Shown here piece by piece: positions 3,687 through 44,180 of a stretch of 44,180 nt of DNA. Numbering within the stretch: the stretch's first letter is position 1; each line of letters begins with the position of its first letter. Under the pieces are notes generated by a model that worked only from the letters and a program-made list of their open reading frames with translations, did no database searches and was not told the DNA's origin. The stretch is from Pacificibacter marinus (lineage in GTDB: Bacteria > Pseudomonadota > Alphaproteobacteria > Rhodobacterales > Rhodobacteraceae), in the NCBI RefSeq assembly GCF_018860505.1, contig NZ_JAHKPU010000041.1:1-44180 (forward strand). The letters are read 5' to 3'. The translations under genes were made by a program, and so were the position numbers.

Positions 3687-4732
3687 AACTTTTGATCACA
3701 GGCGGAGCCGGCTTTATCGGATCAGCTGTCGTGCGCTTGGCTGTTGACCGGGGGCACGAGGTGGTGAACGTGGATGCGCTGACTTATGCTGCATGTTTGG
3801 ATAATGTGGCTTCTGTTTCTGACAGCCCACTTTATGCGTTTGAACAGGTTGATATTCGAAATCGTGATGCATTAGACGCTGTTTTTTCTAAACATAAACC
3901 GGATGCGGTGATGCATTTGGCGGCGGAAAGTCATGTGGACCGTTCTATTGATGGCCCAGGCGATTTTGTTGAAACTAACATCACCGGCACGTTCAACATG
4001 CTTGAAGCCGCGCGTAAATATTGGATTGAGGCGGACAAGCCCGACACGTTCCGGTTCCATCATATTTCCACCGATGAAGTGTTTGGCTCCCTACCAAATG
4101 ATCCTGCGGTAAAGTTCACCGAAGACACGCCGTATGACCCGCGCTCACCTTATTCGGCGTCGAAAGCCAGCTCGGATCACTTGGTGCGGGCATGGCACGA
4201 AACTTATGGTTTGCCTGTGGTTTTGACCAATTGTTCGAACAATTACGGCCCGTTCCATTTTCCTGAAAAACTGGTGCCTGTGATCATTCTCAATGCGCTC
4301 GCAGGAAAAGAACTTCCGATCTACGGTGACGGGGCAAATATCCGTGATTGGCTTTATGTCGAAGATCACGCTGACGCACTTTTGCTGGTCGTTGAAAAAG
4401 GCGTATTGGGGCGTAGCTATAATATTGGCGGCGAAAATGAGCGCACAAACCTTGAGTTGGTTAGAACGCTTTGCGCGATTTTGGATAAAAAACGACCCAA
4501 AGCCAGCGGAAGTTATACTGATCAGATCACCTTTGTGACGGATCGTCCCGGCCATGATGCGCGCTATGCTATTGATCCAACCCGCATTCGCGAAGAATTG
4601 GGATGGCAACCTTCGGTAACTGTCGAAGAGGGCCTTGAGAAAACAGTTGAGTGGTATCTTTCCAATGAAGCGTGGTGGAGCGCGCTGCAGCAGCGCCACG
4701 GTGTTGGCGAACGCTTGGGGGTCAAAGCATGA
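3683..4732 (+). CDS. rfbB: dTDP-glucose 4,6-dehydratase
   Basis: RfbB (RmlB) converts dTDP-D-glucose to dTDP-4-dehydro-6-deoxy-D-glucose, the second step of dTDP-rhamnose synthesis, using bound NAD. It is an extended short-chain dehydrogenase: the Rossmann motif GGAGFIG is at residues 7-13, the AAESHVDRS motif near 80, the catalytic T130-D131-E132 triad in STDEVFG, and YSASK with Tyr157 and Lys161. The 349-residue length is standard. Its ATG overlaps the rfbC stop (ATGA) and its own stop overlaps the rfbD start the same way, which implies translational coupling of the operon. Confidence 0.97.
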
Positions 4733-5580
4733 TCCTTGTTTTTGGTAAAACCGGCCAAGTCGCTACGGAATTGCGTGCGCTTCTGCCTGATGCCATATTC
4801 CTTGGTCGAGACGAGGCGGATTTAACCGATCCAAACCTATGTGCCCACAAAATCGTAACGCTCAAGCCCGATGCCGTTATCAACGCCGCAGCCTACACTG
4901 GGGTGGACAAGGCTGAAGAAGACGAAGACACCGCAGCTTTGGTGAATGGCAAGGCACCGACAGAAATGGCCAAGGCCTGTGCTACTCTTGGCATCCCTTT
5001 TGTTCATATCTCTACCGATTACGTGTTCGATGGGGCTGGCGAAACACCGTTTTCGACTGATCATCCAACTGCACCCTTGGGGGCCTACGGGCGAACGAAA
5101 CTTGCTGGCGAAGACGGTGTGCGAGCAGAGGGTGGCACCTTTGCCATTCTACGCACCTCTTGGGTATTTTCTGCTCACGGCAATAACTTTGTCAAAACCA
5201 TGCTGCGGCTTGGGAGCGAGCGTGACAAGCTGACCATCGTTGGCGATCAAATCGGTGGCCCAACTTCCGCCCGCGCGATTGCCAACGCCTGTGTCGAAAT
5301 GGCGCGGCGACTTCAAGTAGAGCCGAAGGCTGCTGGTACCTATCATTTCTCGGGCACGCCTGATGTGAGCTGGGCTGATTTTGCTCGCGCGATTTTTGCT
5401 GAGGCTGACCTCACATGCGCAGTCGAAGATATTCCATCTTCGGCCTATCCAACCCCCGCCAAACGGCCAAGCAATAGCCGGATGGATTGTCATACGCTTG
5501 ATGTCACATTCGGTATTAATCGCCCCAATTGGAAGGCCGGATTGGCCGATGTTCTGACAGATTTGGAGAAAACGACATGA
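4729..5580 (+). CDS. rfbD: dTDP-4-dehydrorhamnose reductase
   Basis: RfbD (RmlD) performs the last step of dTDP-L-rhamnose synthesis, reducing the C4 keto group with NAD(P)H. The protein starts [15 protein letters not shown], with the dinucleotide-binding glycine motif, then shows [13 protein letters not shown] near residue 51, STDYVFDG near 95, and YGRTK with Tyr120 and Lys124. I used the ATG that overlaps the rfbB stop codon, giving 283 residues, the usual length; a longer in-frame start inside rfbB would add a tail that does not belong to the family. The gene is third in rfbCBDA. Confidence 0.96.
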
Positions 5581-6461
5581 GCGAACGTAAAGGTATTATC
5601 CTCGCTGGGGGCTCCGGCACGCGATTGTATCCATTGACCATGGCTGTATCAAAACAGCTTATGCCGATCTATGATAAACCAATGATCTATTACCCATTGT
5701 CCGTGTTAATGCTCGCTGGCATTCGCGAGATCGCGATGATCACTACGCCGCAGGACCAAAATCAATTCGAGCGGTTGTTGGGCGATGGCTCCCAGTGGGG
5801 CATCGAAATCACTTATATTACGCAGCCGTCCCCTGATGGCCTGGCGCAGGCCTATATTTTGGCCGAAGATTTTCTTGATGGCGCACCCTCAGCAATGGTT
5901 TTGGGGGATAATATTTTCTTTGGTCATGGACTGCCCGAGATGTTGCATGCAGCCGATAGGAAAAAAAACGGAGGCACGGTGTTTGGCTATCACGTGGCAG
6001 ACCCAGAGCGCTACGGCGTTGTGAAATTTGACAGCAACGGCATCGTTGAAAAAATCATCGAAAAGCCAGACTTACCCCCCTCAAACTATGCGGTGACGGG
6101 CCTGTATTTCTTAGATGGAGACGCTCCGCGTCGTGCGAAAGAGGTCAAACCATCGCATCGCGGTGAGGTTGAAATTGTCACGCTTCTTGAGACCTACCTG
6201 GCCGATGGCACGCTATCCGTGGAACGCATGGGGCGTGGCTATGCGTGGCTCGATACCGGCACACATGGGTCTTTGTTGGATGCTGGGAATTTTGTGCGCA
6301 CGCTGTCCACGCGCCAAGGCATGCAATCGGGGTGCCCTGAAGAGATCGCCTATGCGGCAGGTTGGATCAATGATGGCAAAATGCAGGAACATGCTGAGAC
6401 ATTTAAGAAAACCGAGTATGGAAAATACCTTGCAAATTTACTGAGGGATGCAGGTAACTAG
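5577..6461 (+). CDS. rfbA: Glucose-1-phosphate thymidylyltransferase
   Basis: RfbA (RmlA) joins dTTP and glucose-1-phosphate to form dTDP-glucose, the committed first step of dTDP-rhamnose synthesis, and is normally feedback-inhibited by the end product. The nucleotidyltransferase signature GGSGTRLYPLT is at residues 11-21, followed by SKQLMPIYDKPMIYYPLS, VLGDNIFFG and the WLDTGTH motif. At 294 residues it has standard length. The start overlaps the rfbD stop (ATGA). It closes the four-gene rhamnose operon, and about 80 nt separate it from the next co-directional gene, so read-through is likely. Confidence 0.97.
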   Translation: MSERKGIILAGGSGTRLYPLTMAVSKQLMPIYDKPMIYYPLSVLMLAGIREIAMITTPQDQNQFERLLGDGSQWGIEITYITQPSPDGLAQAYILAEDFLDGAPSAMVLGDNIFFGHGLPEMLHAADRKKNGGTVFGYHVADPERYGVVKFDSNGIVEKIIEKPDLPPSNYAVTGLYFLDGDAPRRAKEVKPSHRGEVEIVTLLETYLADGTLSVERMGRGYAWLDTGTHGSLLDAGNFVRTLSTRQGMQSGCPEEIAYAAGWINDGKMQEHAETFKKTEYGKYLANLLRDAGN

Positions 6462-6541
6462 TGGCTGGCTGGTTTGCGCACCTGATCCACAGATAACAGG
6501 TAGTTGCCGCCGAGCACTGTAACAGGAGAAAATGACCGGAT

Positions 6542-7615
6542 ATGATAAAATATTGGCGGCTTACACCCGAGACTAATAATCTTTTGACGCTGGATTTTCT
6601 GCGCTTTATCGCATCTTTAGGGATTGTCTATTATCATCTCAATGAGTTTTTCTTTTCCCCTGAACAGAGGCAAGATATCATTGGTCTCCAAGGGTTTGGC
6701 ATGTTTGTTGATCTCTTTTTCATGATTTCTGGCTTTGTTCTTACCTATGCTTATCTGGGACGTATCAATTCGTTAAGTAGCTACTTAAAATTTTTGTGGC
6801 GCCGCGTTGCCCGTTTGTACCCGCTACATTTAGTGGTGCTGGCTATTAACATTGGGACTTGGTGGATCCTTCTGTTGCGAGCCAATGCTACTACAGCCCC
6901 GTCTTTTGATCCTGCCTGTATTTTGCACACAGCGCTGCTCATTCAGGAATATTTGAACTGTGGCTCCCCTTATACGTTCAACGGCGTGACGTGGTCGATA
7001 AGTATTGAAATGGGACTCTATGTCCTATTTCCAATATTTATATTACTCGCGCGCTCTATTTGGCTGTTGATAGGTAGTGTTAGTGTGTGTTTCATCATCT
7101 CGGGTGTATTGCTTGAACACACTGACGGCTGGGGCCATTTGCCTAGCGTGCTTCGTGGACTTACGGGTTTCACTTTCGGTATATTTCTGTTCTGCATTCG
7201 TGAGCATTTACCGAATATGAAAGACAAGGGCATTGTCAGTGTAATTCTTGTTCTCCTTCTGATTTTCGAAATGCTTACGCCAACATCCAGTTGGATTCGG
7301 ATGGTAACAATCGTCGCTTTGGCTACCACGGCTGTTGCAAGTGACGTCCATGGGAACATTAATGGTATGATTAGACGGTTGGCTCCCTTTGGTCAGCTAA
7401 CTTATTCGATGTATATTTGGCATAGGGTCATTATTCTTGTTTTCATGAATGCTGTTGCGGACAAGATGTTTCATGGCAATCAGGCGGTTCTAATTGCCAT
7501 GACGGCCTTGTCCATAGCTGTGATTGTTGTCACTAGTTATGCAGGATATTTTTTGATAGAGACCCCAGCACGTAAGGCGCTCACGAACGTTACTAAATCT
7601 CGGAACAAGAAGTGA
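6542..7615 (+). CDS. Membrane acyltransferase, OafA/acyltransferase-3 family
   Basis: This integral membrane acyltransferase probably O-acetylates or otherwise acylates a sugar of the polysaccharide. It opens with the family motif LDFLRFIASLGIVYYHLNEFF, including Arg21 and the likely catalytic His32. About ten hydrophobic segments follow, and it ends with FLIETPARK, close to the family's C-terminal IExP motif. The 357-residue length is typical, with no C-terminal SGNH domain. A GGAG lies about 15 nt before the ATG, which is far; a competing out-of-frame ATG closer to it gives only 14 codons. Its stop overlaps the next gene in GTGA, pointing to one transcript with the rfb genes. The acyl group and acceptor sugar cannot be told from sequence. 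Confidence 0.88.
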   Translation: MIKYWRLTPETNNLLTLDFLRFIASLGIVYYHLNEFFFSPEQRQDIIGLQGFGMFVDLFFMISGFVLTYAYLGRINSLSSYLKFLWRRVARLYPLHLVVLAINIGTWWILLLRANATTAPSFDPACILHTALLIQEYLNCGSPYTFNGVTWSISIEMGLYVLFPIFILLARSIWLLIGSVSVCFIISGVLLEHTDGWGHLPSVLRGLTGFTFGIFLFCIREHLPNMKDKGIVSVILVLLLIFEMLTPTSSWIRMVTIVALATTAVASDVHGNINGMIRRLAPFGQLTYSMYIWHRVIILVFMNAVADKMFHGNQAVLIAMTALSIAVIVVTSYAGYFLIETPARKALTNVTKSRNKK

Positions 7616-8739
7616 AGCAGAGGATGTCCGCCATGGCTGGACCCAAAACAAAAATTTGGCTCGTGGCGCAGTGCGACGAACCAATTAGTGGGCAGACTGT
7701 GTTCAACCAGTTGATGCGCACATGTCTGTCTGATTGTGGTCAAATCGAGCACCTGCCGATCGGAGGGACCACGGTTCAGAAGATAGGGCGAGGGTTGCTC
7801 AATCCGCTTATTCTTTTGGCTCGTCTCCGTTCAGGAGACATCGTTTATACGTCGCCGCCTGGGCAGATGGGCCTTTGGTTTTTCTTGGTGACCGTTCTGG
7901 TTTTGCGTCTACGCGGCCATCCATTCTATGCGCATCATCACAGCTATCGTGCGATTGCGATTGGTCCTCTCCCGCAGGTCCGCTTGATGGGAAAGCTTGG
8001 GGCTGGTCTTATTACCCATATTCTTCTTTGCGATAAAATGCGAGATGAGTATGAAAATCTATACCGCGTCAACGATAAGGAACGGTTTATAACTCTGCCG
8101 AATGCGGCATTCTTTTCTCGGTCTGGATCTCTTTCTGGACAGGAGAGGGGGCCACGGGTCACCGTAGGCCATATGAGTGTTATGACTGTAGAAAAAGGTG
8201 TCCCTTATCTATTGGAAATGTGGAAGCACCTTGCCTTAAATGATCTTGATGCCGAACTTGTTCTGGCTGGGCCGATTCCTGATCCTGAGCTTGAAAAACA
8301 GGTGCGCGAAGCCGTGGAGCAAAGCAACGGCACTCTTAAATGGATGGGACCTGTTGCAGGTCAAGCCAAGAAGGATTTCCTTGAGCACACAGAACTGTTC
8401 GTTCTTCCTACCCAGTTGATTGATGAAGCCGATCCTCTTGTTTTGCTTGAAGCATATAATTTCGGCGCCGCCGTCTTGGCGCCAGATCGAGGTTGCATCC
8501 GATCGCGACTTATTTCTACAGACTGGTTGATGTCCATGGATGTCGAAAAGGATGCTACTTTGCTGTTGGAAAAAGTCACTCAGGTTCGTAACGAGCGCAT
8601 GACATTGCCGTCTCTCCTTTTGGAGCACGCGACAGCGCTCCAAGAAAATGCTGAAAAAAGTGCCGAAAATTTCTTCGGTGAGTTTGGTGTTTCACAGGAC
8701 TATGCCCGAGATGTTCTAAAAAAGATCACCGCGGCATAG
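7612..8739 (+). CDS. Family 4 (GT-B) glycosyltransferase
   Basis: This is a predicted glycosyltransferase that adds one sugar of the repeat unit at the cytoplasmic face. The C-terminal half has the GT-B pattern: GHMSVMTVEKGVPYLLEMW, ELVLAGPI, KWMGPV, and the EX7E-like motif in DEADPLVLLEAYNFG, which binds the nucleotide-sugar. The N-terminal half is divergent but holds the hydrophobic segment PGQMGLWFFLVTVLVLRLRG, probably membrane-apposed. A GTG overlapping the previous stop is taken as start; ATGs four and seven codons later are also possible. It ends about 20 nt from the convergent GT2 gene, with no clear terminator between them. Donor and linkage are unknown. Confidence 0.85.
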   Translation: MKQRMSAMAGPKTKIWLVAQCDEPISGQTVFNQLMRTCLSDCGQIEHLPIGGTTVQKIGRGLLNPLILLARLRSGDIVYTSPPGQMGLWFFLVTVLVLRLRGHPFYAHHHSYRAIAIGPLPQVRLMGKLGAGLITHILLCDKMRDEYENLYRVNDKERFITLPNAAFFSRSGSLSGQERGPRVTVGHMSVMTVEKGVPYLLEMWKHLALNDLDAELVLAGPIPDPELEKQVREAVEQSNGTLKWMGPVAGQAKKDFLEHTELFVLPTQLIDEADPLVLLEAYNFGAAVLAPDRGCIRSRLISTDWLMSMDVEKDATLLLEKVTQVRNERMTLPSLLLEHATALQENAEKSAENFFGEFGVSQDYARDVLKKITAA

Positions 8740-24884: not shown

Positions 24885-25658
24885 ATGTTTAAGCGTTTTT
24901 TTCGCCCGCGAAAGCCAAAAGAAACTGCACCTATTTTACGGTTTGAAGGTGGGGCGCCAAGTCCAGAAGAAAACCTTGCTATTGTGGGCGATATCCATGG
25001 GCAGCTGGGCTGCCTGAATGCGATGATCGACCAGTTAAACGACCAAGCGCCCGACGCCCGCTGGATCTTTGTTGGGGACTTGATAGACCGCGGCGAAGAC
25101 AGCGCAGAGGTTTTAGAGCGCATACGCAGCTTACAGACCACGCGCCCAAACACAGTGGTTATTTTGGGCAACCACGAAGAAATGATGTTGTCATTTCTTC
25201 GTAATCCAGAAGAAGCAGGCAACAGATGGATGCGTCATGGCGGCTTGCAAACGCTGGCAAGCTATGGCGCTTTGCATTTAAGCCAAAACAACACGCCAAA
25301 AGCCTTAAGACAAGCGCATGAACATCTTTTGGCTGCTATGCCATCAGGGCTTGAGCAGTGGCTCAGCGACCGCCCTCGCGTGTTTCAAAGCGGCAATGTT
25401 GCTGTCGTCCACGCTGGCGCAGACCCTACGCTGCCCATAGAACATCAAAAGGACCAAGCCTTGACTTGGGGCCATGTGCGCTTTCAACAGCAGCCACGGC
25501 AAGACGGGCTTTGGGTTGTCCATGGGCATACCATCGTAGATATCCCACAAGAGAGTAACGGTGTGATTTCGGTGGATACCGGAGCATATGCCACAAGCCG
25601 CCTGACCGCTGCATTCCTGCACGACGGGGCCGTTGAATTTATTCAAACCCGTGGATAA
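24885..25658 (+). CDS. PPP-family metallophosphatase
   Basis: This is a cytoplasmic serine/threonine or dual-specificity protein phosphatase of the PPP metallophosphoesterase family, close in motif pattern to phage lambda phosphatase and bacterial PrpA/PrpB. The metal-binding motifs are GDIHG at residues 35-39, GDLIDRG at 64-70 and GNHEE at 95-99, with later histidines in VVHAG and VVHGHT. At 257 residues it has full length. Its place a few genes after the Wzc autokinase, where clusters often carry a Wzb phosphatase, suggests it may dephosphorylate Wzc; diadenosine polyphosphate hydrolysis is an alternative. It ends facing the ABC-transporter operon. Confidence 0.85.
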   Translation: MFKRFFRPRKPKETAPILRFEGGAPSPEENLAIVGDIHGQLGCLNAMIDQLNDQAPDARWIFVGDLIDRGEDSAEVLERIRSLQTTRPNTVVILGNHEEMMLSFLRNPEEAGNRWMRHGGLQTLASYGALHLSQNNTPKALRQAHEHLLAAMPSGLEQWLSDRPRVFQSGNVAVVHAGADPTLPIEHQKDQALTWGHVRFQQQPRQDGLWVVHGHTIVDIPQESNGVISVDTGAYATSRLTAAFLHDGAVEFIQTRG

Positions 25659-31223: not shown

Positions 31224-31281
31224 GGGGAGGCTGCGAAGCAGTTCCCCATGATCCTCATTGACACTCCTGCGAAGCTGGAGT
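31224..31281 (+). other. Candidate oriT: two GCGAAGC-capped hairpins before the relaxase gene
   Basis: Hairpin 1 pairs GGGGA(G) with TTCCCC and CTGC with GCAG around a GAA loop (31224-31247). Hairpin 2 is ACTCCTGCGAAGCTGGAGT (31263-31281), with five outer pairs, a T-T mismatch and the same GC-GAA-GC cap. CTGCGAAGC is thus directly repeated 36 bp apart. The d(GCGAAGC) cap is known to form an exceptionally stable DNA mini-hairpin. MobV relaxases usually have their oriT just upstream, so this is the natural candidate. Hairpin 2 also covers the relaxase Shine-Dalgarno (GGAG). The oriT role is inference. Confidence 0.45.
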
Positions 31282-31287
31282 TTCATT

Positions 31288-33480
31288 ATGAGCAATAAAC
31301 TCCAAATCGGAATCATTGTCTCAACCATATGGAATGATGTCATGGCCAGACGCCCTCGGAAACCACGCGGCACAAGAAAACCACGTCAACCAAAAGAGCG
31401 TCAACTTGCTGGAACGGGTGCCATCGTCACGAATTTTCGCCAATCTTCGCGCGCCAATTTGAAAGCAGCCACACTACACCAGACAAAACGAAACCCTGAC
31501 GGCTGGTCTGCGATTGACCTTGATCGTGTGCACCTCAATGAGGTCTGGGTAGGGTCCGGCATGCACATTCTCAACGATGTGAACGCCTATATGAAAGACG
31601 TGGTTGAGCCGACATTTAAAAACTCGTCAGGCTCTCCTTTTTGCACCATCATCCTCGGTGCCTCACCAGAATATTTTCGACCAGATGGCGGTGCTCCAGG
31701 AAGCGAAGACCCGAAACGTCTGTCGGCTTGGAAGACGCTCACAAAGGCATGGATCGTCGCAACCTTTGGAGACGACTTGGTCTCTGCCATTTACAATGGC
31801 GATGAAACGACACCCCATGTCCACCTCGCGATCTGTCCAACTTATATGAAACGATCTCGCAAACCTGACCGCAAGAAAGCAGGGGAAACCGACGAAGCAT
31901 TCAGGCAGCGCTGCGAAGATTGGAAGACAGAGATCGGCACAAAAACATTGAGTTGGTCATCCAACCATGTCCTTGGAAAGTACAACAGCTTTGGACAGCT
32001 GCGCGAATCCTATGCAGAAGCGATGAAACCACTCGGGCTTGAATACTCGCTCGCATCCTTTGAACCAGCGCAATACCCAAACCCCAGCAACAAACGTGAG
32101 TACGTCATTGAGCTGGAGGAACAAAACGAAGCTGAAGTGGCCCAACTCCAGGAGGAACGACAAAAACTAGCCGAGGAACGCGAAGCCCTGCGCAAAGAAC
32201 GTGAAGCGTTTGAGGCCACAAAAGATGACCTCATGCGGGAAACACTGGAAACAGGCACGGCCAATGCCTTGCGCATTTCAAAGGCGACCGTGGCTGCAAG
32301 CGAAAAAGTCGCTGGGCGTTTAGAGGCAAATGCAGCCGAAAAGGCCAAGCGACTTGAGGCAGAACGCACTGCGGAATGGGACGAACGAGTTGCGCAGCTT
32401 GTGCAACGTGAACGCACATTCAAACGCGAGCGCATTCAAATGAAGGAAGAGATCAACTGGATATCGAATGCTCTAACCAACATCGCTTTCGCATTCGAAG
32501 CCATTTTTGACGGCACTTTCGAACATGTTCTTGAATCTGATGCTTTCCCCTCAAGCAAAGCAACGGATGACCTTTTTGAACGGCGCGCAGGCAAGCCCGA
32601 TAAAGGCGACAGATATGAGTTCCTGTCGACCCACTTCTCAAGCGGCGATCCGATCCCTCTGCCCGCAACCATCAAGTCCATCATTCATGACACGTTCTCG
32701 CGCATTCGCAGATTTGTGTCAGAGTTTATCGAACAGCTCAAGCGACACAAAGAACGCAAACGTGAGGTAGAAATTCTCGAGAAACAAAAGCGGCAGACCC
32801 AAGAAGACCTCAGCGGGGCACTACGAGATCTCAAACAAACCCGTGCAAATCATCGAGCTGCCGAAACGGCCGAGAAAGATGCCCAAGCGGCATATGGAAA
32901 ATTGTCCTCAGACATCATTGACCTCACCAGCAAAATGGCCCCCCTCCGACCAGCCTATGAAAGCCTTAAATCTTGGACCGATGAGCTGACCGGCTTGAAA
33001 CCGATGGATGAGGATTATTCCGCTGCAAATCTCTGGCTCAGGAACTGGCTCAACGGTGCAGATATCGGAAATGGCACGCTGCACTCTTTGACTGTTCGGT
33101 TGCAGCATGCTGACTATCGCGCGGCTTTCGCTAAACGTGTGGCAAAGCGCGGCATCCCTTGTGATGTCTCCTCTGACGATATCCGAGAGAGATGGGCGGC
33201 CTTATCTAGGGTGAGCCGAGACTCTCTCCAAACCTTACTGTGTGAAATGGAGGTGATGGAAAACAAAGGCGAGCTTCCGATCGTGTGGACTGAGGCTGTG
33301 CTCGAGCCGCTTGCGTCCCAATTCGCAAAAGAACGTGCCAACAGGACAACGCACCAAATGCCAGAACTTGCAAAACTGTTCTTGGGGCTCCCCGATGAAA
33401 TCAAAAAACGCACTGAGGCGGCCCTCGATGCCAATCCAAAACCAGCATCAACCAGCAACGGCCCAAATATGAGATTTTGA
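31288..33480 (+). CDS. MobV-type relaxase / plasmid recombination (Mob/Pre) protein
   Basis: This is a probable DNA relaxase that would nick oriT and start plasmid transfer. The N-terminal domain holds Mob/Pre-like motifs: LHQTKRN (candidate catalytic His, near residue 64), DRVHLNEVWVG near 80, and the metal-binding YNGDETTPHVHLAICPT near 170, matching the HxDExTPHxH pattern of MobM. The rest is dominated by coiled coil (about 275-420 and 495-570) and a helical C-terminus. The total is about 730 residues, longer than classical MobM. I chose an ATG with GGAG 7 nt upstream; a TTG start ten codons earlier is weaker. No coupling protein or type IV secretion gene is in the window. Confidence 0.8.
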   Translation: MSNKLQIGIIVSTIWNDVMARRPRKPRGTRKPRQPKERQLAGTGAIVTNFRQSSRANLKAATLHQTKRNPDGWSAIDLDRVHLNEVWVGSGMHILNDVNAYMKDVVEPTFKNSSGSPFCTIILGASPEYFRPDGGAPGSEDPKRLSAWKTLTKAWIVATFGDDLVSAIYNGDETTPHVHLAICPTYMKRSRKPDRKKAGETDEAFRQRCEDWKTEIGTKTLSWSSNHVLGKYNSFGQLRESYAEAMKPLGLEYSLASFEPAQYPNPSNKREYVIELEEQNEAEVAQLQEERQKLAEEREALRKEREAFEATKDDLMRETLETGTANALRISKATVAASEKVAGRLEANAAEKAKRLEAERTAEWDERVAQLVQRERTFKRERIQMKEEINWISNALTNIAFAFEAIFDGTFEHVLESDAFPSSKATDDLFERRAGKPDKGDRYEFLSTHFSSGDPIPLPATIKSIIHDTFSRIRRFVSEFIEQLKRHKERKREVEILEKQKRQTQEDLSGALRDLKQTRANHRAAETAEKDAQAAYGKLSSDIIDLTSKMAPLRPAYESLKSWTDELTGLKPMDEDYSAANLWLRNWLNGADIGNGTLHSLTVRLQHADYRAAFAKRVAKRGIPCDVSSDDIRERWAALSRVSRDSLQTLLCEMEVMENKGELPIVWTEAVLEPLASQFAKERANRTTHQMPELAKLFLGLPDEIKKRTEAALDANPKPASTSNGPNMRF

Positions 33481-33505: not shown

Positions 33506-34096
33506 TTACTCTAACAGCCCTGCATCCTGCATCTGCTCACGATCTGGTAGGTCGCGTAGCGTTTCCAACCCGAACAGCACGAGAAACTCTTCGGTGGTGA
33601 CGAACGTATAAGGCGCGCCACGCCGAGGTGATCGCGGACCCGTCCCGATCAGACCACGCGCATGTAACCGTCCAATCAGGTCACGGCTGATGTCCTTGGC
33701 GAAGACGTCTTTCAACCCCTCACGCGTGATCGGTTGGTGATAGGCAATTGCAGTCAACACAGCGACATCAAGCGTGCTCAGGTCCAGCCGCTGCTCACCA
33801 AGGTCCGCCGCGGCTCGGATCGCCGGCGCATAGGCAGATCGGGTCCGGAACATCCAGCCACCAACCACTTTGGCAATTTCAAAAGACCGGCCAGCAAGGT
33901 CAGCACAGAGATCTTCGATCAAAAGATCGACCGAAGCCTCCTGCCCCACCACCTTTGCCAAATCCTCGCGCAGCACCGGCGAAGCGCTGGCAAACAGCAC
34001 GGCCTCAATCCGTCGCATCCATTCGCGCCAGCGCAGTTCTGGCGGCAGGTCAGCCAGCTCGCGGTCAAGTTCAGGCTCAGGGTGTTTCTTAGCCAT
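33506..34096 (-). CDS. scpB: ScpB-like segregation and condensation protein
   Basis: This belongs to the ScpB (kleisin-interacting tandem winged-helix) family, a subunit of the SMC-ScpAB complex. The first winged helix covers RRIEAVLFASASPVLREDLAKVV, and the second includes LSTLDVAVLTAIAYHQPITREGLKDVFAKDIS, then RGLIGTGPRSPRRGAPYTFVTTEEFLVLFGL, the family's signature end. At about 196 residues it is of normal length. I chose the MAKKHPEPE start; an ATG five codons upstream overlaps the previous gene. No scpA or smc is nearby, so this is an orphan copy, translationally linked to the DUF1403 gene. It may serve plasmid segregation rather than replace the chromosomal copy. Confidence 0.88.
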   Translation of the reverse strand: MAKKHPEPELDRELADLPPELRWREWMRRIEAVLFASASPVLREDLAKVVGQEASVDLLIEDLCADLAGRSFEIAKVVGGWMFRTRSAYAPAIRAAADLGEQRLDLSTLDVAVLTAIAYHQPITREGLKDVFAKDISRDLIGRLHARGLIGTGPRSPRRGAPYTFVTTEEFLVLFGLETLRDLPDREQMQDAGLLE

Positions 34097-34100
34097 AGGA

Positions 34101-35003
34101 TTAGACCCCATATAGTCGAAAGGTGTCGCGGCCAGTAAGTTCCCGCACTGCCCCCAACGCGCCCAACCTATCGCAAAGACGTCGTGCCGCCCGATCAGGC
34201 AAAGGCAAAGCCATTGGCGAAACAGCATCCCGCGCCAGAAACATCTCAACGGCAGCGCCCGCCGCTTTCGCCCGCAACTTCGGCGCGACCGCTTTCAGAT
34301 GCACCGCACCACGCGAAAGCTCCGCCCCAAAGCCGACAGCCTCACAAGCCGAAGAGACTACCGCGCGATGATATACCAATCGCAGATCATCACCACGCTT
34401 ACGAAGGTCAGCATGTTTTAGGCCCGCAGCCAGCAGCGGAACCAGATGGTCCCACCCCAGCCCCTGCGCCAAAGCAGCGTCTGCAAGGATCAAGGCTGAA
34501 ACCTCCGCGCGCGGCGCATCCATCAGGACGGCTTCAAACACAGCGGCAGCGCGGTCCACCGGCGCACCCTGCCCCGCGTCGAGCCAATCGACGACCTGCG
34601 CGACATCAACTTGAGGCAGAGCGCGATGCAAGGTTTTGATCGACAAGGGCCTCTCGATCGCGCGCCGCCATTGCAGATAAGTCTCCCCTGCCGGACCGGG
34701 CAGGTCGCCTGGACGCATGAAGTGCAGAGCATCACGCAGGTCGCTTGCGCGTTCAGGTCGCCCCGCAAAAGTCATACAGGCTTCGGCTGCCCGTAGCGCC
34801 AAGCGGTCTCTCAACAACTCCTGAGGCACGTCACCGCACATCAATAGAGTATGCAGATGCGACAACGCTGCCCCTGATAAAAACGCCGCATCTTCAAGAG
34901 TTTCGGCACATCCAGACGGAATCCAAGACGGTATTCGGAACACTGTATCTAGACTCGTCCTTTGCGGAATATATTCGATTTTCATACGAAAATCGTAATC
35001 CAT
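34101..35003 (-). CDS. DUF1403 family protein
   Basis: This is a protein of unknown function that I match by pattern to the DUF1403 family of alphaproteobacterial plasmids and islands. Recognisable stretches are FLSGAALSHLHTLL, RDRLALRAAEACMTFAGRPERASDLRDALHF, GDLPGPAGETYLQWRR and LGWDHLVPLLAAGLKHADLR. It is predicted to be all-helical with no membrane segment. The start is uncertain: the longest frame begins at 35090, only 20 bp from the divergent recombinase start, which would leave no room for promoters, so I used an internal ATG; another lies six codons further on. It forms an operon with scpB. Confidence 0.75.
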   Translation of the reverse strand: MDYDFRMKIEYIPQRTSLDTVFRIPSWIPSGCAETLEDAAFLSGAALSHLHTLLMCGDVPQELLRDRLALRAAEACMTFAGRPERASDLRDALHFMRPGDLPGPAGETYLQWRRAIERPLSIKTLHRALPQVDVAQVVDWLDAGQGAPVDRAAAVFEAVLMDAPRAEVSALILADAALAQGLGWDHLVPLLAAGLKHADLRKRGDDLRLVYHRAVVSSACEAVGFGAELSRGAVHLKAVAPKLRAKAAGAAVEMFLARDAVSPMALPLPDRAARRLCDRLGALGAVRELTGRDTFRLYGV

Positions 35004-35077
35004 GACGGCGCTTATGGCTAGATATTTTCCATCAAACCGCCTCAGCTTGTATGATCTATTTACGTCCAATAAGTTTG

Positions 35078-35094
35078 TATTATCGGACATAATA
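35078..35094. promoter_or_regulatory. Inverted repeat between DUF1403 and recombinase genes
   Basis: TATTATCGGACATAATA is a perfect 6-bp inverted repeat with a 5-nt centre. It ends 17 bp before the recombinase ATG, in the only space available for the two divergent promoters. It is a possible operator or recombinase-binding site. Confidence 0.4.
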
Positions 35095-35110
35095 AAATAG
35101 CCTAAAATCT

Positions 35111-36145
35111 ATGTCGCGCAACGCCCCAAAACCCGATGAAATTGCCCTGCCAGCTGATGTTTCCGGCTCAGGCACCATGGATCGCTTGGTTACCACCGCG
35201 CGCGATTACGCACGCATGGCCGTGGCGGACAATACCAATGCGGCTTACAAAACAGACTGGTCGCAATTCGCACGCTGGTGCAGGCGTCGAGGCGCAGAAC
35301 CTTTACCCCCGTCCGCTGAGTTGATCGGGCTTTACATGGCCAATTGTGCCGCTCCAGATGATCGCTCCCCTGCCCTGTCTGTGGCGACCATAGAGCGACG
35401 TCTCTCTGGGCTTGTGTGGCATTACAAACAACATGGCTTTGCGCTGGATCGCAAGGATCGCCACATCTCGACTGTGCTGGCGGGCATCCGGCGCAAGCAC
35501 GCCCGCCCTCCGGAGCAAAAGGAAGCCATCCTGCCCGAAGACATCCGCGCCATGGTTGCGACCTTGGGGTTTGATCTGCGCGGGCTTCGGGATCGCGCTA
35601 TTTTATTGCTGGGGTTTGCAGGCGGATTACGGCGCTCTGAAATCGTCAGTTTGGATATGCGCAAGGGCGATACAATTGACGGCAAAGGGTGGGTCGAAAT
35701 TTTGGACGCAGGGATCATTTTGACCTTTCACAGCAAAACCGGTTGGCGCGAGGTTGAGATTGGTCGAGGATCGTCGGATCAAAGCTGCCCTGTGCATGCT
35801 CTTGAGCAATGGTTGCACTTTTCCAAAATTGACCTTGGTCCCGTATTCAGGCGCACGGCGCGCAATGGCAAACATGCGCTTGAGGCGCGGTTGTCGGACA
35901 AACATGTGGCACGGCTGATTAAGCAAACCGTCTTGGCCGCGGGCATCCGATCTGATCTGCCTGAAAAAGAACGGCTGACTTTATTTTCTGGTCATAGCTT
36001 GCGAGCGGGGTTGGCCAGTTCAGCCGAAGTGGATGAGCGTTATGTGCAAAAACATCTTGGACATGCCTCCGCTGAAATGACCCGCCGTTATCAACGCCGC
36101 CGAGATCGGTTCCGTGTGAACCTGACCAAAGCTGCGGGACTATAG
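35111..36145 (+). CDS. Tyrosine recombinase / integrase
   Basis: This is a site-specific recombinase of the tyrosine family. A SAM-like DNA-binding N-terminal domain (DNTNAAYKTDWSQFARWCRRRG) precedes the catalytic domain. The catalytic residues are seen as Arg in GFAGGLRRSEIVSL, Lys in FHSKTGWR, HSLRAGLA (His and Arg), GHAS and the nucleophilic Tyr in MTRRYQRRRDRF. The 344-residue length and simple architecture resemble XerC/D-like and plasmid resolvase-type integrases rather than phage integrases. It diverges from DUF1403-scpB and is followed by a cluster of palindromes. Dimer resolution or cassette integration are both possible; no duplicated attachment site was found. Confidence 0.93.
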   Translation: MSRNAPKPDEIALPADVSGSGTMDRLVTTARDYARMAVADNTNAAYKTDWSQFARWCRRRGAEPLPPSAELIGLYMANCAAPDDRSPALSVATIERRLSGLVWHYKQHGFALDRKDRHISTVLAGIRRKHARPPEQKEAILPEDIRAMVATLGFDLRGLRDRAILLLGFAGGLRRSEIVSLDMRKGDTIDGKGWVEILDAGIILTFHSKTGWREVEIGRGSSDQSCPVHALEQWLHFSKIDLGPVFRRTARNGKHALEARLSDKHVARLIKQTVLAAGIRSDLPEKERLTLFSGHSLRAGLASSAEVDERYVQKHLGHASAEMTRRYQRRRDRFRVNLTKAAGL

Positions 36146-36162: not shown

Positions 36163-36188
36163 AGTTTGTTTCGCACGCGAAACAAACT
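36163..36188. other. parS-like site 1
   Basis: The core GTTTCGCACGCGAAAC (36168-36183) is flanked by matching AGTTT/AAACT, giving an inverted repeat with 11-bp arms and a CACG centre. The same core occurs at 40298 and 40704 near parB. The arms GTTTC/GAAAC are those of the chromosomal ParB site GTTTCACGTGAAAC, with a longer centre. It lies about 4 kb from the other copies, between the recombinase and cysNC genes. Confidence 0.72.
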
Positions 36189-36204
36189 GCAATGAAGTCA
36201 TTGC
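36189..36204. repeat. Palindrome next to parS-like site 1
   Basis: GCAATGAAGTCATTGC is a perfect 7-bp inverted repeat around AG. It directly abuts the parS-like site on one side and overlaps the terminator hairpin on the other. Two short inverted arms around a small centre, just after a tyrosine recombinase gene, also fit a recombination core site. Confidence 0.45.
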
Positions 36205-36233
36205 CCGACGCGACCGTGTGCGACGCGTCGGGC
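36203..36233. terminator. Hairpin between convergent recombinase and cysNC genes
   Basis: A perfect 10-bp GC-rich stem (GCCCGACGCG and CGCGTCGGGC) with an 11-nt loop is followed on the plus strand by TTTCCGTTT. It probably ends transcription of the recombinase gene and perhaps of cysNC. Confidence 0.65.
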
Positions 36234-40294: not shown

Positions 40295-40316
40295 TTTGTT
40301 TCGCGCGCGAAACAAA
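40295..40316. other. parS-like site 2
   Basis: This is a perfect 22-bp palindrome with core GTTTCGCGCGCGAAAC (40298-40313) flanked by TTT/AAA. It lies in the gap between the convergent LuxR-type gene and parB, the usual place for a plasmid centromere site. It is the most symmetrical of the three copies. Confidence 0.8.
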
Positions 40317-40341: not shown

Positions 40342-41361
40342 TTACATCCGGCGCGCTTTCAGCCACTTGTTCAAATCTTTTATCAGGGCCTCGTCAACGC
40401 CCTCCCCCGTGAGTTCCGCACGCCCATCTTTTGGGTGAAAGGTGACTTTAACTTGGGTCGTAGTCTTTAACCCTTTAGGATGAGCCACTTTCGCGCGCGC
40501 TTCAGTCAACAACACAGCCATTTCGGCCTCAGCTGAAGTCGGCTTTGCTTGCGCTAGTCGCGCCTTCATCGCTTCGGCATTGGCGGGGTCCGCCTGAATT
40601 CTTTTGACCAATTCAAGGCCTGTGCGTTCGCTCAAGGCAGACGGGAACTGCAAAGCCCCGTCTAGAGTCTCAACAAGGGTCATAAAGCTTTTGATCTTGG
40701 AACGTTTCGCACGCGAAACATTTGAAAACAGAGTCTGAAGGGCTTTCTTAGAGTCTGTATAGACCCCCTCCTCCAAGGCTTTGACCACGACGCGTGCTCG
40801 TTCATAAAAACTGATGTCAGAGCGAATTTCGTTTTCTTCCACCATCGCGACATAGGCATCCGAAGAGGTTTTAGGCTGACGCACAATCGCCAAAACTTCA
40901 GGTGCGCCAATCTCGGACAGCGCAACCATACGGCGCCAGCCAGAGATCAAACCATAGCGCGGCGTCGTCTCTGCGCCACGATCCACCACTTCAATGGGTG
41001 TTTGCTGCCCACGCGCTTTTAGGCTGGATTTGAGCGCCTCAAGATCATCGCTATGGACATGAACGCGGTCACGCACCAGATGCCCCATATCGACCTGCGA
41101 CAACGCCAGAACTTCAACAATACGGCCTTCAGAGCGCGCCTTAGCCACCATGTCGGTCATTTCAGTGAGCGCCGCAGTCATCGCCGCTTCGCCTGCGACA
41201 TGCGCGATCGGCGGGCGGCTTGTGGTTTTGGCTACACCCATCGAAAACATCGCTTTGGTCTCAGGGGCTCGCGCGTCAGTTTTGGCTGCATTCGAGTCAA
41301 TTTGGTCATTGCCACCAAGAAAATCTGAACGGGCAGGGGTCAGTCTTTTACGTTTCGCCAT
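40342..41361 (-). CDS. parB: Plasmid partition protein ParB
   Basis: ParB binds the plasmid centromere and partners ParA in segregation. Family motifs are VRDRVHVHSDDLEALKSSLKARGQQTPIEV, YGLISGWRRMVALSEIG (the arginine-rich box) and VEENEIRSDISFYERARV, followed by an HTH region (TDSKKALQTLFSNVSRAKRSKIKSF, shown in part) and a C-terminal dimerisation end. The 339-residue length is typical for RepA- and RepABC-linked ParB. The start overlaps the parA stop by 14 nt. A parS-like site lies inside the coding sequence and another just after it. Confidence 0.95.
   Translation of the reverse strand: MAKRKRLTPARSDFLGGNDQIDSNAAKTDARAPETKAMFSMGVAKTTSRPPIAHVAGEAAMTAALTEMTDMVAKARSEGRIVEVLALSQVDMGHLVRDRVHVHSDDLEALKSSLKARGQQTPIEVVDRGAETTPRYGLISGWRRMVALSEIGAPEVLAIVRQPKTSSDAYVAMVEENEIRSDISFYERARVVVKALEEGVYTDSKKALQTLFSNVSRAKRSKIKSFMTLVETLDGALQFPSALSERTGLELVKRIQADPANAEAMKARLAQAKPTSAEAEMAVLLTEARAKVAHPKGLKTTTQVKVTFHPKDGRAELTGEGVDEALIKDLNKWLKARRM
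40704..40719. other. parS-like site 3, inside parB
   Basis: GTTTCGCACGCGAAAC, identical in core to site 1, lies within the parB coding region where it encodes part of the NVSRAKRS segment. It is about 390 bp from site 2. An intragenic parS could couple ParB spreading to its own expression. Confidence 0.7.
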
Positions 41362-43156: not shown

Positions 43157-44180
43157 ATGGCAGGCGCAGTGACAACTGCTGGGGCAGGGGGGCTTTTACC
43201 CGATCGGCATCCGCAGATTGATTTTTTTCTTTGCGACATCTTTGATGCCATTCCCAAGGATGATTTGGCGACGATGGAACATCCGATGTTCTCGCTGTCT
43301 ACACGCCCTGATCGACGTATTTTGTCTTACGAGCACAACGGAACGCAGATCGAGGTCACGCCCTCTGTTAAAGGTCTGGCGACAATTCACGACAAAGACA
43401 TTTTGATTTTTTGCGTCAGTCAATTGATGGCGGCGCTCAATATGGGACGTGCCATCAGTCGCACGCTGACCTTGACCGCCCATGATCTTTTGGTGGCCAC
43501 TAACCGTGAAACCAGTGGGGATTCTTACCGGCGTTTGACGGAAGCGTTTGACCGTCTTGCGGGGACGCGGATCAAAACCAACATCGTGGTTGGTGATCAT
43601 GAGGTGACGTCTGGGTTTGGCCTGATTGAAAGCTGGGAAATTGAGCGGAAAACCCGTGGCGGGCGGATGCTGAATGTCTCTGTCACCTTGTCGGAATGGC
43701 TGTTTAGAGCCGTTATGTCGAAATCTGTTTTGACGCTCAGTCGTGATTATTTCAGGTTGCGCAAACCGCTGGAACGGCGGGTTTACGAGTTGGCGCGTAA
43801 ACATTGTGGCAAGCAAGATTATTGGCGCGTGTCTGTGTCAACGCTGTTGAAAAAATCAGGCTCGGCCAGCCCGCGTCGTGTATTTCGCAAAATGATCCGC
43901 GATATGATCGAGGCCAATCAACTGCCCGATTACGAGATCGCAGAAGAAGAGGGCGACATCATCCGCTTTACAACGCGCGCGCGCGTGTTGGAAAACGATG
44001 GTCCGACGCTTGGGCCATTACCAGTGGCTGCGTTCGAGCGCGCGCGCGATATTGCGCCTGGTTGGGATGTCTATGCGCTTGAGGCGGATTGGCGTGCCTA
44101 CTGGGCGGCCTCTGGCCACCCGCGATTGCATTCCGCAGAACAAGCGTTCTTGGGCTACGTCAAAGTGCGTATGGCCAAGA
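43157..44180 (+). CDS. repA: Plasmid replication initiator RepA (RPA family), partial
   Basis: This initiator should bind the upstream iterons and open the origin. Translating the frame gives LLPDRHPQIDFFLCDIFDA near the start, MEHPMFSLSTRP, the hallmark TPSVKGLATIHDKDILIFC, FRLRKPLERRVYELARKHCG and a winged-helix-like C-terminal region, as in the RPA-type RepA of Rhodobacteraceae plasmids. The ATG is chosen because AGGGA lies 5 nt upstream and no other start codon exists in frame before it after the stop at 43019. At least 341 codons are open and the frame runs off the window end, so the C-terminus is missing here. It diverges from parAB. Confidence 0.93.
   Translation, partial: MAGAVTTAGAGGLLPDRHPQIDFFLCDIFDAIPKDDLATMEHPMFSLSTRPDRRILSYEHNGTQIEVTPSVKGLATIHDKDILIFCVSQLMAALNMGRAISRTLTLTAHDLLVATNRETSGDSYRRLTEAFDRLAGTRIKTNIVVGDHEVTSGFGLIESWEIERKTRGGRMLNVSVTLSEWLFRAVMSKSVLTLSRDYFRLRKPLERRVYELARKHCGKQDYWRVSVSTLLKKSGSASPRRVFRKMIRDMIEANQLPDYEIAEEEGDIIRFTTRARVLENDGPTLGPLPVAAFERARDIAPGWDVYALEADWRAYWAASGHPRLHSAEQAFLGYVKVRMAK

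Follow-up and report, generated by a model that had tools for sequence, protein, structure and literature searches.

A 44,180-nucleotide contig of Pacificibacter marinus (NZ_JAHKPU010000041.1, here called the window; complete contig C17 of its genome) carries, at 33506-36145, genes for an ScpB-family protein and a DUF1403 protein, with a tyrosine recombinase gene divergent from both. We propose, with a probability of roughly two in three and on the strength of sequence comparison, that low-copy alphaproteobacterial plasmids have in this locus a self-contained module for site-specific recombination, which resolves multimers and cointegrates and in which DUF1403 and ScpB play accessory parts. 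A sequence-only reading of the window had taken the three genes for a candidate plasmid maintenance module. All three are present, each with a profile match above its family cut-off, and they do form one conserved plasmid module, found in hundreds of plasmid records and often near repABC; what that account lacked was the composite site between the genes, the breakpoints at its core and the copies of the site that stand away from the genes.

The composite site in the divergent spacer

The 125-bp spacer between the divergent recombinase and DUF1403 genes holds a composite site of about 80 bases, in which a core and an inverted repeat, IR2, stand at a fixed spacing. The core, 25 bp long and lox/dif-like, has the form GTCCGATAA-N7-TTATTGGAC, its inverted arms flanking a short centre; in the window it reads GTCCGATAA-TACAAAC-TTATTGGAC and lies on the minus strand at 35064-35088, as located by the alignment of conserved spacers and by the clustering of breakpoints. 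IR2, of the form GGCGGTTT-N19-AAAGCGCCG, begins 22 nt past the core and is placed by its fixed spacing to it (window form TAAGCGCCG, 35006-35041, minus strand); centre to centre, core and IR2 are about 52 bp apart, close to five turns of the helix. A 29-base form of the core, searched at up to three mismatches, occurs in a single place in the genome, and the backward control pattern also has one match.

Across 37 aligned loci the spacer DNA is strongly conserved though non-coding, and the core is present at 17 or more of its 22 arm letters in 31 of them, falling below this in L003, L022, L023, L024, L026 and L036, the last of which has a variant. The composite pattern was derived from these same 37 spacers and its fixed blocks are therefore conditioned on them; free of such conditioning are the spacing totals, a search with the core alone and the breakpoints. 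Scanning with a loose spacing (25 totals allowed, one genome per species) gave at least 117 composite sites. Among the 117 listed, the total core-IR2 spacing is 49 in 111 and 48 in six; DUF1403 adjoins 103 and the recombinase 74, with both genes at 69 and neither at nine, and a rep gene is found in 50 of the loci. Record titles place 115 of these sites in Alphaproteobacteria and give no class for the remaining two, and one site, L225, is probably a chance match. The core-only search, at no more than two mismatches, found matches in 34 of 149 genomes of the order, against 7 of 149 for the backward control. When one core-only locus was taken from each of 30 genomes, IR2 stood at the fixed distance with at least 14 of its 17 letters at 26 of them; the other four, all two-mismatch matches in genomes without the module genes, had at most six of the 17.

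Complete core-and-IR2 sites are also found apart from the three genes, on three contigs of genome G140 and two of genome G046, the recombinase in both genomes being on a different contig. Three of these five gene-less sites lie near plasmid replication genes (two in G140 near PF10134 initiators, one in G046 after repABC), while L103 is 4 kb from a parA-like gene and L106 sits among polysaccharide genes. The ends of one G046 contig (C12) repeat over more than 10.7 kb, either as the assembly overlap of a circle or as a real duplication, and for this reason its two identical sites (L107 and L108) were counted as one.

Eleven sites lacking a detectable DUF1403 gene were examined; nine passed the letter thresholds, among them L185, which has the recombinase, with the reservation that L177, counted as DUF1403-less, may hold a broken remnant of the gene. 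All nine, five of them found by the core alone and four by the composite pattern, which itself requires part of IR2, retain the repeat (13 to 17 of 17 letters). The TA of the -10-like box of DUF1403, at offset 8, is by contrast kept in none of the nine, as against 93 of 101 gene-linked sites. IR2 thus persists where the promoter box has been lost, and its role therefore seems to go beyond that of a DUF1403 operator. These counts bear on a simpler arrangement, in which the recombinase and the core would be the entire recombination system, and DUF1403 and ScpB would regulate transcription only, with IR2 as their operator. The layout would fit such a scheme, with the core immediately ahead of the recombinase gene and IR2 immediately ahead of the -10-like box and start of DUF1403, and the C-terminus of DUF1403 has a weak HTH_13 match (E 0.0005, under the family cut-off, in the long frame scanned). 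Set against the fixed IR2-core spacing and the retention of IR2 at DUF1403-less sites, even allowing for the four that come from the composite pattern, we consider purely transcriptional roles unlikely.

Breakpoints at the core and the proposed function

In a survey of 146 distinct segments extending up to 1.5 kb on each side of the core, near-identical stretches (no shorter than 120 bp and no less than 95% identical) were shared by 35 pairs and have 35 interior ends. Nineteen of these ends, making up 9 of 21 clusters, lie roughly 20 bp or less from the core centre: measured from that centre, identity stops between -10 and -18 where the right flank is common and between +13 and +16 where the left one is. 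The remaining 16 ends form 12 clusters, and five of those ends are no more than 60 bp from the core centre. Measured against uniform breakpoints, the sole null used, 9 of 21 clusters in the 40 of 2,960 positions that make up the core region has a P of about 4e-12. Related plasmids repeatedly have one flank almost perfectly in common and differ in the other, the switch falling at the core. Thalassovita and Salipiger agree in the right flank but not in the left; within one Pseudohalocynthiibacter genome, a plasmid and another contig have a common left flank, core included, and part ways on the right; and a run of 3,212 bp that starts at the core is identical in two Pseudosulfitobacter plasmids, which diverge before it. 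In cases of unlike 7-bp centres, identity often ends at the centre, which is the trace expected from strand exchange there. Judged by these alignments, crossover very probably takes place naturally at the core.

In the mechanism that we propose, the recombinase would bind both arms of the core and exchange strands in the 7-bp centre; the site and the crossover are strongly supported by sequence, and the recombinase would be the enzyme that carries out the exchange. DUF1403 and the ScpB paralog, probably encoded in one operon, would be accessory proteins whose point of action is IR2, five helical turns or so away from the core, and may control the timing of the exchange or the choice of sites. 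The main benefit would be the conversion of plasmid dimers and cointegrates to monomers, enabling partitioning at low copy number. Occasional core exchange between different plasmids, of which the breakpoints are the observed part, would give rise to mosaic plasmids, and replicons that have the site alone may use the module proteins in trans. A more specific version, which we put forward tentatively and somewhat short of even odds, has the ScpB paralog and DUF1403 at IR2 as an architectural factor that builds the synaptic complex and restricts the recombinase to the right pair of sites, possibly coupled to SMC-driven plasmid segregation.

The composite site is single on nine of the first ten replicons checked: six of the seven complete plasmids have one and the seventh has two, and each of three contigs of genome G149 has one. 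Among 11 plasmids picked for having at least two DUF1403 or ScpB places, the composite pattern finds two sites in five, one in four and none in two. The six two-site plasmids include four with the sites in opposite orientation (W02, W08, W09 and W12) and one, W14, with direct sites whose centres differ.

Several observations weigh against resolution as the function. The sixth two-site plasmid, NZ_CP086905 (W10; 197,667 bp), carries an identical pair of directly repeated sites separated by about 87 kb, and their retention means that resolution, if this is the activity, is not always efficient. By sequence, the plasmid looks like a fusion of two plasmids found separately in sister strains. Measured from the core start, its joints with these relatives map to -30 and to between +131 and +206, missing the core centre, positions implying that one parent had its site segment replaced, with no clean crossover; an origin by simple core crossover was rejected because the joints do not fit it. 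They speak for inefficient resolution in this isolate, or for a parent other than the one compared. Thirty of the 117 listed composite sites have at least 600 bp of room yet no adjoining recombinase, and three genomes (G057, G058 and G119) have DUF1403 and the site without a recombinase at E<=1e-40. Modules are also found on contigs of 0.8-3.1 Mb, in G046, G119 (1.15 Mb) and G148 (3.1 Mb), so not every copy is now plasmid-borne. As to the accessory proteins, it is linkage that suggests an action of DUF1403 or ScpB through IR2. Finally, ordinary homologous recombination might account for the flank switches, using as its substrate the short core, which is the best conserved non-coding stretch; the cointegrate joints outside the core would agree with this, as would the 12 of 21 breakpoint clusters elsewhere, with the proviso that five of their ends are close to the core. 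The identity, however, ends a few bases from the core edges, beyond which the flanks are often only about 50-80% alike, and some 25 identical bases are little substrate for homologous recombination, which makes this origin of the switches quite improbable.

NZ_CP086905 (loci L282 and L283) and a second cointegrate, NZ_CP087085 (L286 and L287), come from sister strains; in each, a 110.6-kb and an 87.1-kb plasmid, the same two in both, appear to have been fused, with different joints. In the second both modules are undamaged, and the joint probably lies in the Tn7-like region.

The recombinase, DUF1403 and the ScpB paralog

The recombinase (35111-36145, plus strand) is of the Cre/Xer type, with 52.3 bits to PF00589 (cut-off 27.1), and its top match among solved structures is Cre (E 3e-10). 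Residues R174, K209, H295, R298, H318 and Y327, which we take to be the catalytic R-K-H-R-H-Y set, are invariant or at least 90% conserved in 32 aligned rows.

DUF1403 (34101-34985, minus strand) matches PF07183 with 296.8 bits (cut-off 31.8; long frame scanned). The gene called by the sequence-only reading is there, in a frame that was drawn too long: the open reading frame 34101-35090 extends through the core and IR2, and its first 35 codons are non-coding site DNA. The true start is most likely 34985, because the annotated starts of relatives are later and because of the ATG spacing behind IR2, an ATG being found exactly 20 nt behind the repeat in 87 of the 101 gene-linked sites that pass the letter thresholds; in the aligned DUF1403 proteins, start positions were set by a fallback choice. 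A sequence search for relatives of DUF1403 among solved structures returned none up to E 1. The candidate identity of a divergent ScpA (kleisin) was rejected on sequence, the profile comparison giving a probability of 0.2%.

The ScpB paralog (33506-34096, minus strand) starts 4 nt behind DUF1403 and matches PF04079 with 111.5 bits (cut-off 27.4), while against the ScpB equivalog TIGR00281 its 76.4 bits are below the cut-off of 89.2. A search of the PDB with it returns ScpB structures. It had been described as an orphan, and so it is: no ScpA partner was found on its contig, and the only ScpA found in the genome (C1:213889-214536) adjoins another ScpB (C1:213311-213772). In a tree of 54 sequences, 23 module-linked ScpB (thinned from 100 plasmid rows) and 31 high-scoring ScpB are split by one very long branch with support 100/100, the labels "plasmid" and "chromosomal" having been assigned by module linkage and score class, not by contig identity. 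The module proteins have a specific N-terminal motif, DRELxDLPPELRWREWM, and the other class has 76 conserved columns in the second half of the protein; of these, 22 persist in at least 90% of module rows and 31 in fewer than 10%. From these sequence changes we infer that the module ScpB has changed partner.

These features also speak to the functions that had been suggested for the set, namely dimer resolution and condensation of the replicon, or redirection of the host SMC complex. Recombination, which the option of dimer resolution implied, is the part that stands as the likely activity. In favour of a plasmid ScpB that draws the host's SMC-ScpA complex onto the plasmid, to condense and segregate it, one may cite the parS-like sites nearby and the profile match to the other ScpB class, which has a probability of 99.9% over nearly the full protein length; like the ScpB of the SMC-ScpAB condensin, the module protein belongs to the PF04079 family. 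It differs, however, in its separate clade and very long branch, in the many altered residues that the other class conserves, in the place of the only ScpA found, which is beside the other ScpB, and in its linkage to a recombinase and its site. With DUF1403 also unlike ScpA in profile comparison, we hold the SMC scheme to be very unlikely.

Distribution, known systems and replicon context

Among 72,556 plasmid records searched by tblastn, DUF1403 has a match in 647, ScpB in 748 and the recombinase (E<=1e-50) in 702, with similar leading genera for all three. Seven annotated records were opened first, and five of them have the order recombinase, DUF1403, ScpB near repABC or repC (Sulfitobacter D7, Roseovarius, a Ti plasmid, Sulfitobacter BSw21498 and Methylocystis); a Phaeobacter record has all three genes, with rep genes absent from the stretch examined, and the locus in a Bradyrhizobium record is without the recombinase. 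In the 149 genomes of the order, DUF1403 is above its cut-off in 31 and the recombinase is present (E<=1e-40) in 28; the two occur together in 26 genomes against about six expected, which bears out the conserved co-occurrence on which the sequence-only reading had staked its module.

The recombinase might instead serve the integration and excision of a mobile element, phage-like or resembling an integrative and conjugative element. PHROGs annotates it under integration and excision, plasmid cointegrates exist, and the modules on very large contigs would be consistent with insertion of this kind. G119 and G148 have one site each. The module nevertheless stands in plasmid backbones, with one site on nine of ten replicons, and in those genomes of the order sample that are without the genes the core has only the four two-mismatch matches, without IR2; a mobile element is accordingly a poor explanation of the locus. 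A defence role was rejected, there being no PADLOC match.

Resolution by tyrosine recombinases is already known as a kind, from Cre/lox and Xer/cer. Cre/loxP of the phage-plasmid P1 and ResD/rfsF of F are plasmid-borne tyrosine resolvases, and the loxP centre is 8 bp. The module resembles them in a recombinase whose best match among solved structures is Cre, in inverted arms and a short asymmetric centre beside the gene, and in having mostly one site per replicon; it differs in its 7-bp centre, in IR2 at a fixed distance and in two conserved neighbour genes, one of them an ScpB paralog. Xer/cer and Xer/psi resolve multimers of ColE1-type plasmids with the accessory proteins ArgR, ArcA and PepA. 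Common to these and the module are a core with adjoining accessory sequence, sites on replicons without a recombinase gene, and accessory proteins, whereas the module encodes its own single recombinase and has DUF1403 and ScpB as accessory candidates, not ArgR, ArcA or PepA. On the rhizobial plasmid pSmeLPU88b, according to the available part of the source, a Cre-like "xerD" linked to concatemer resolution lies downstream of repABC and is followed by a toxin-antitoxin pair (PMC10194956). That gene is likewise a Cre-like tyrosine recombinase adjoining repABC on rhizobial plasmids; it differs in the toxin-antitoxin pair, and neither a site nor DUF1403 nor ScpB is described in the same part of that article (PMC10194956).

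DUF1403 itself, the composite site and an ScpB partner are undescribed among the matches listed in the literature searched, most subscription papers being outside the reach of that search. It likewise returned no match for ScpB on repABC, Roseobacter or Rhizobium plasmids, or for ScpB with a site-specific recombinase and RepC; for a dif-like site with repABC the only match, in the part of the source available, concerns a chromosomal dif. ScpB or Scp is not mentioned in the accessible parts of PMC13386836, PMC10194956 and PMC9426580. The module would supply a site for the recombinases beside many repABC replicons, including those of a Ti plasmid and of rhizobial and roseobacter plasmids, and a testable function for DUF1403 and for hundreds of plasmid "ScpB" genes, which are no mere duplicates of the ordinary condensin gene, and it would explain one route to mosaic plasmids. 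If it is true that ScpB serves recombination here, a chromosome-folding protein has taken on a new task.

The replicon of the window is RepA-type, not repABC, since a RepA-type replication initiator (PF10134, 328.6 bits) is found at 43157-44179, truncated by the contig end. A parA/parB pair is present, and polysaccharide genes, as read from the open reading frames, are numerous. The canonical parS, TGTTTCACGTGAAACA, has zero matches in the window at up to three mismatches. The parS-like site noticed earlier beside the module is credible: the palindrome GTTTCGCRCGCGAAAC occurs in three copies, at 36168-36183 directly behind the recombinase and at 40298-40313 and 40704-40719 beside and inside parB. 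At up to three mismatches it has seven strand-counted matches in the window against 0.74 expected, one of them elsewhere, at 24899. The palindromes at 36163-36188 and 36203-36233 are real as well.

Convergent with ScpB, at 31258-33480, is a gene for a MobV-like relaxase with a long C-terminal half (58.4 bits, below the cut-off of 100). Genes for Tn7-like TniQ, TniB or Mu-type transposases are repeatedly found near the module (L035, at 4305-7853; L272, L275, L282-L288 and L290), as though it were a preferred target.

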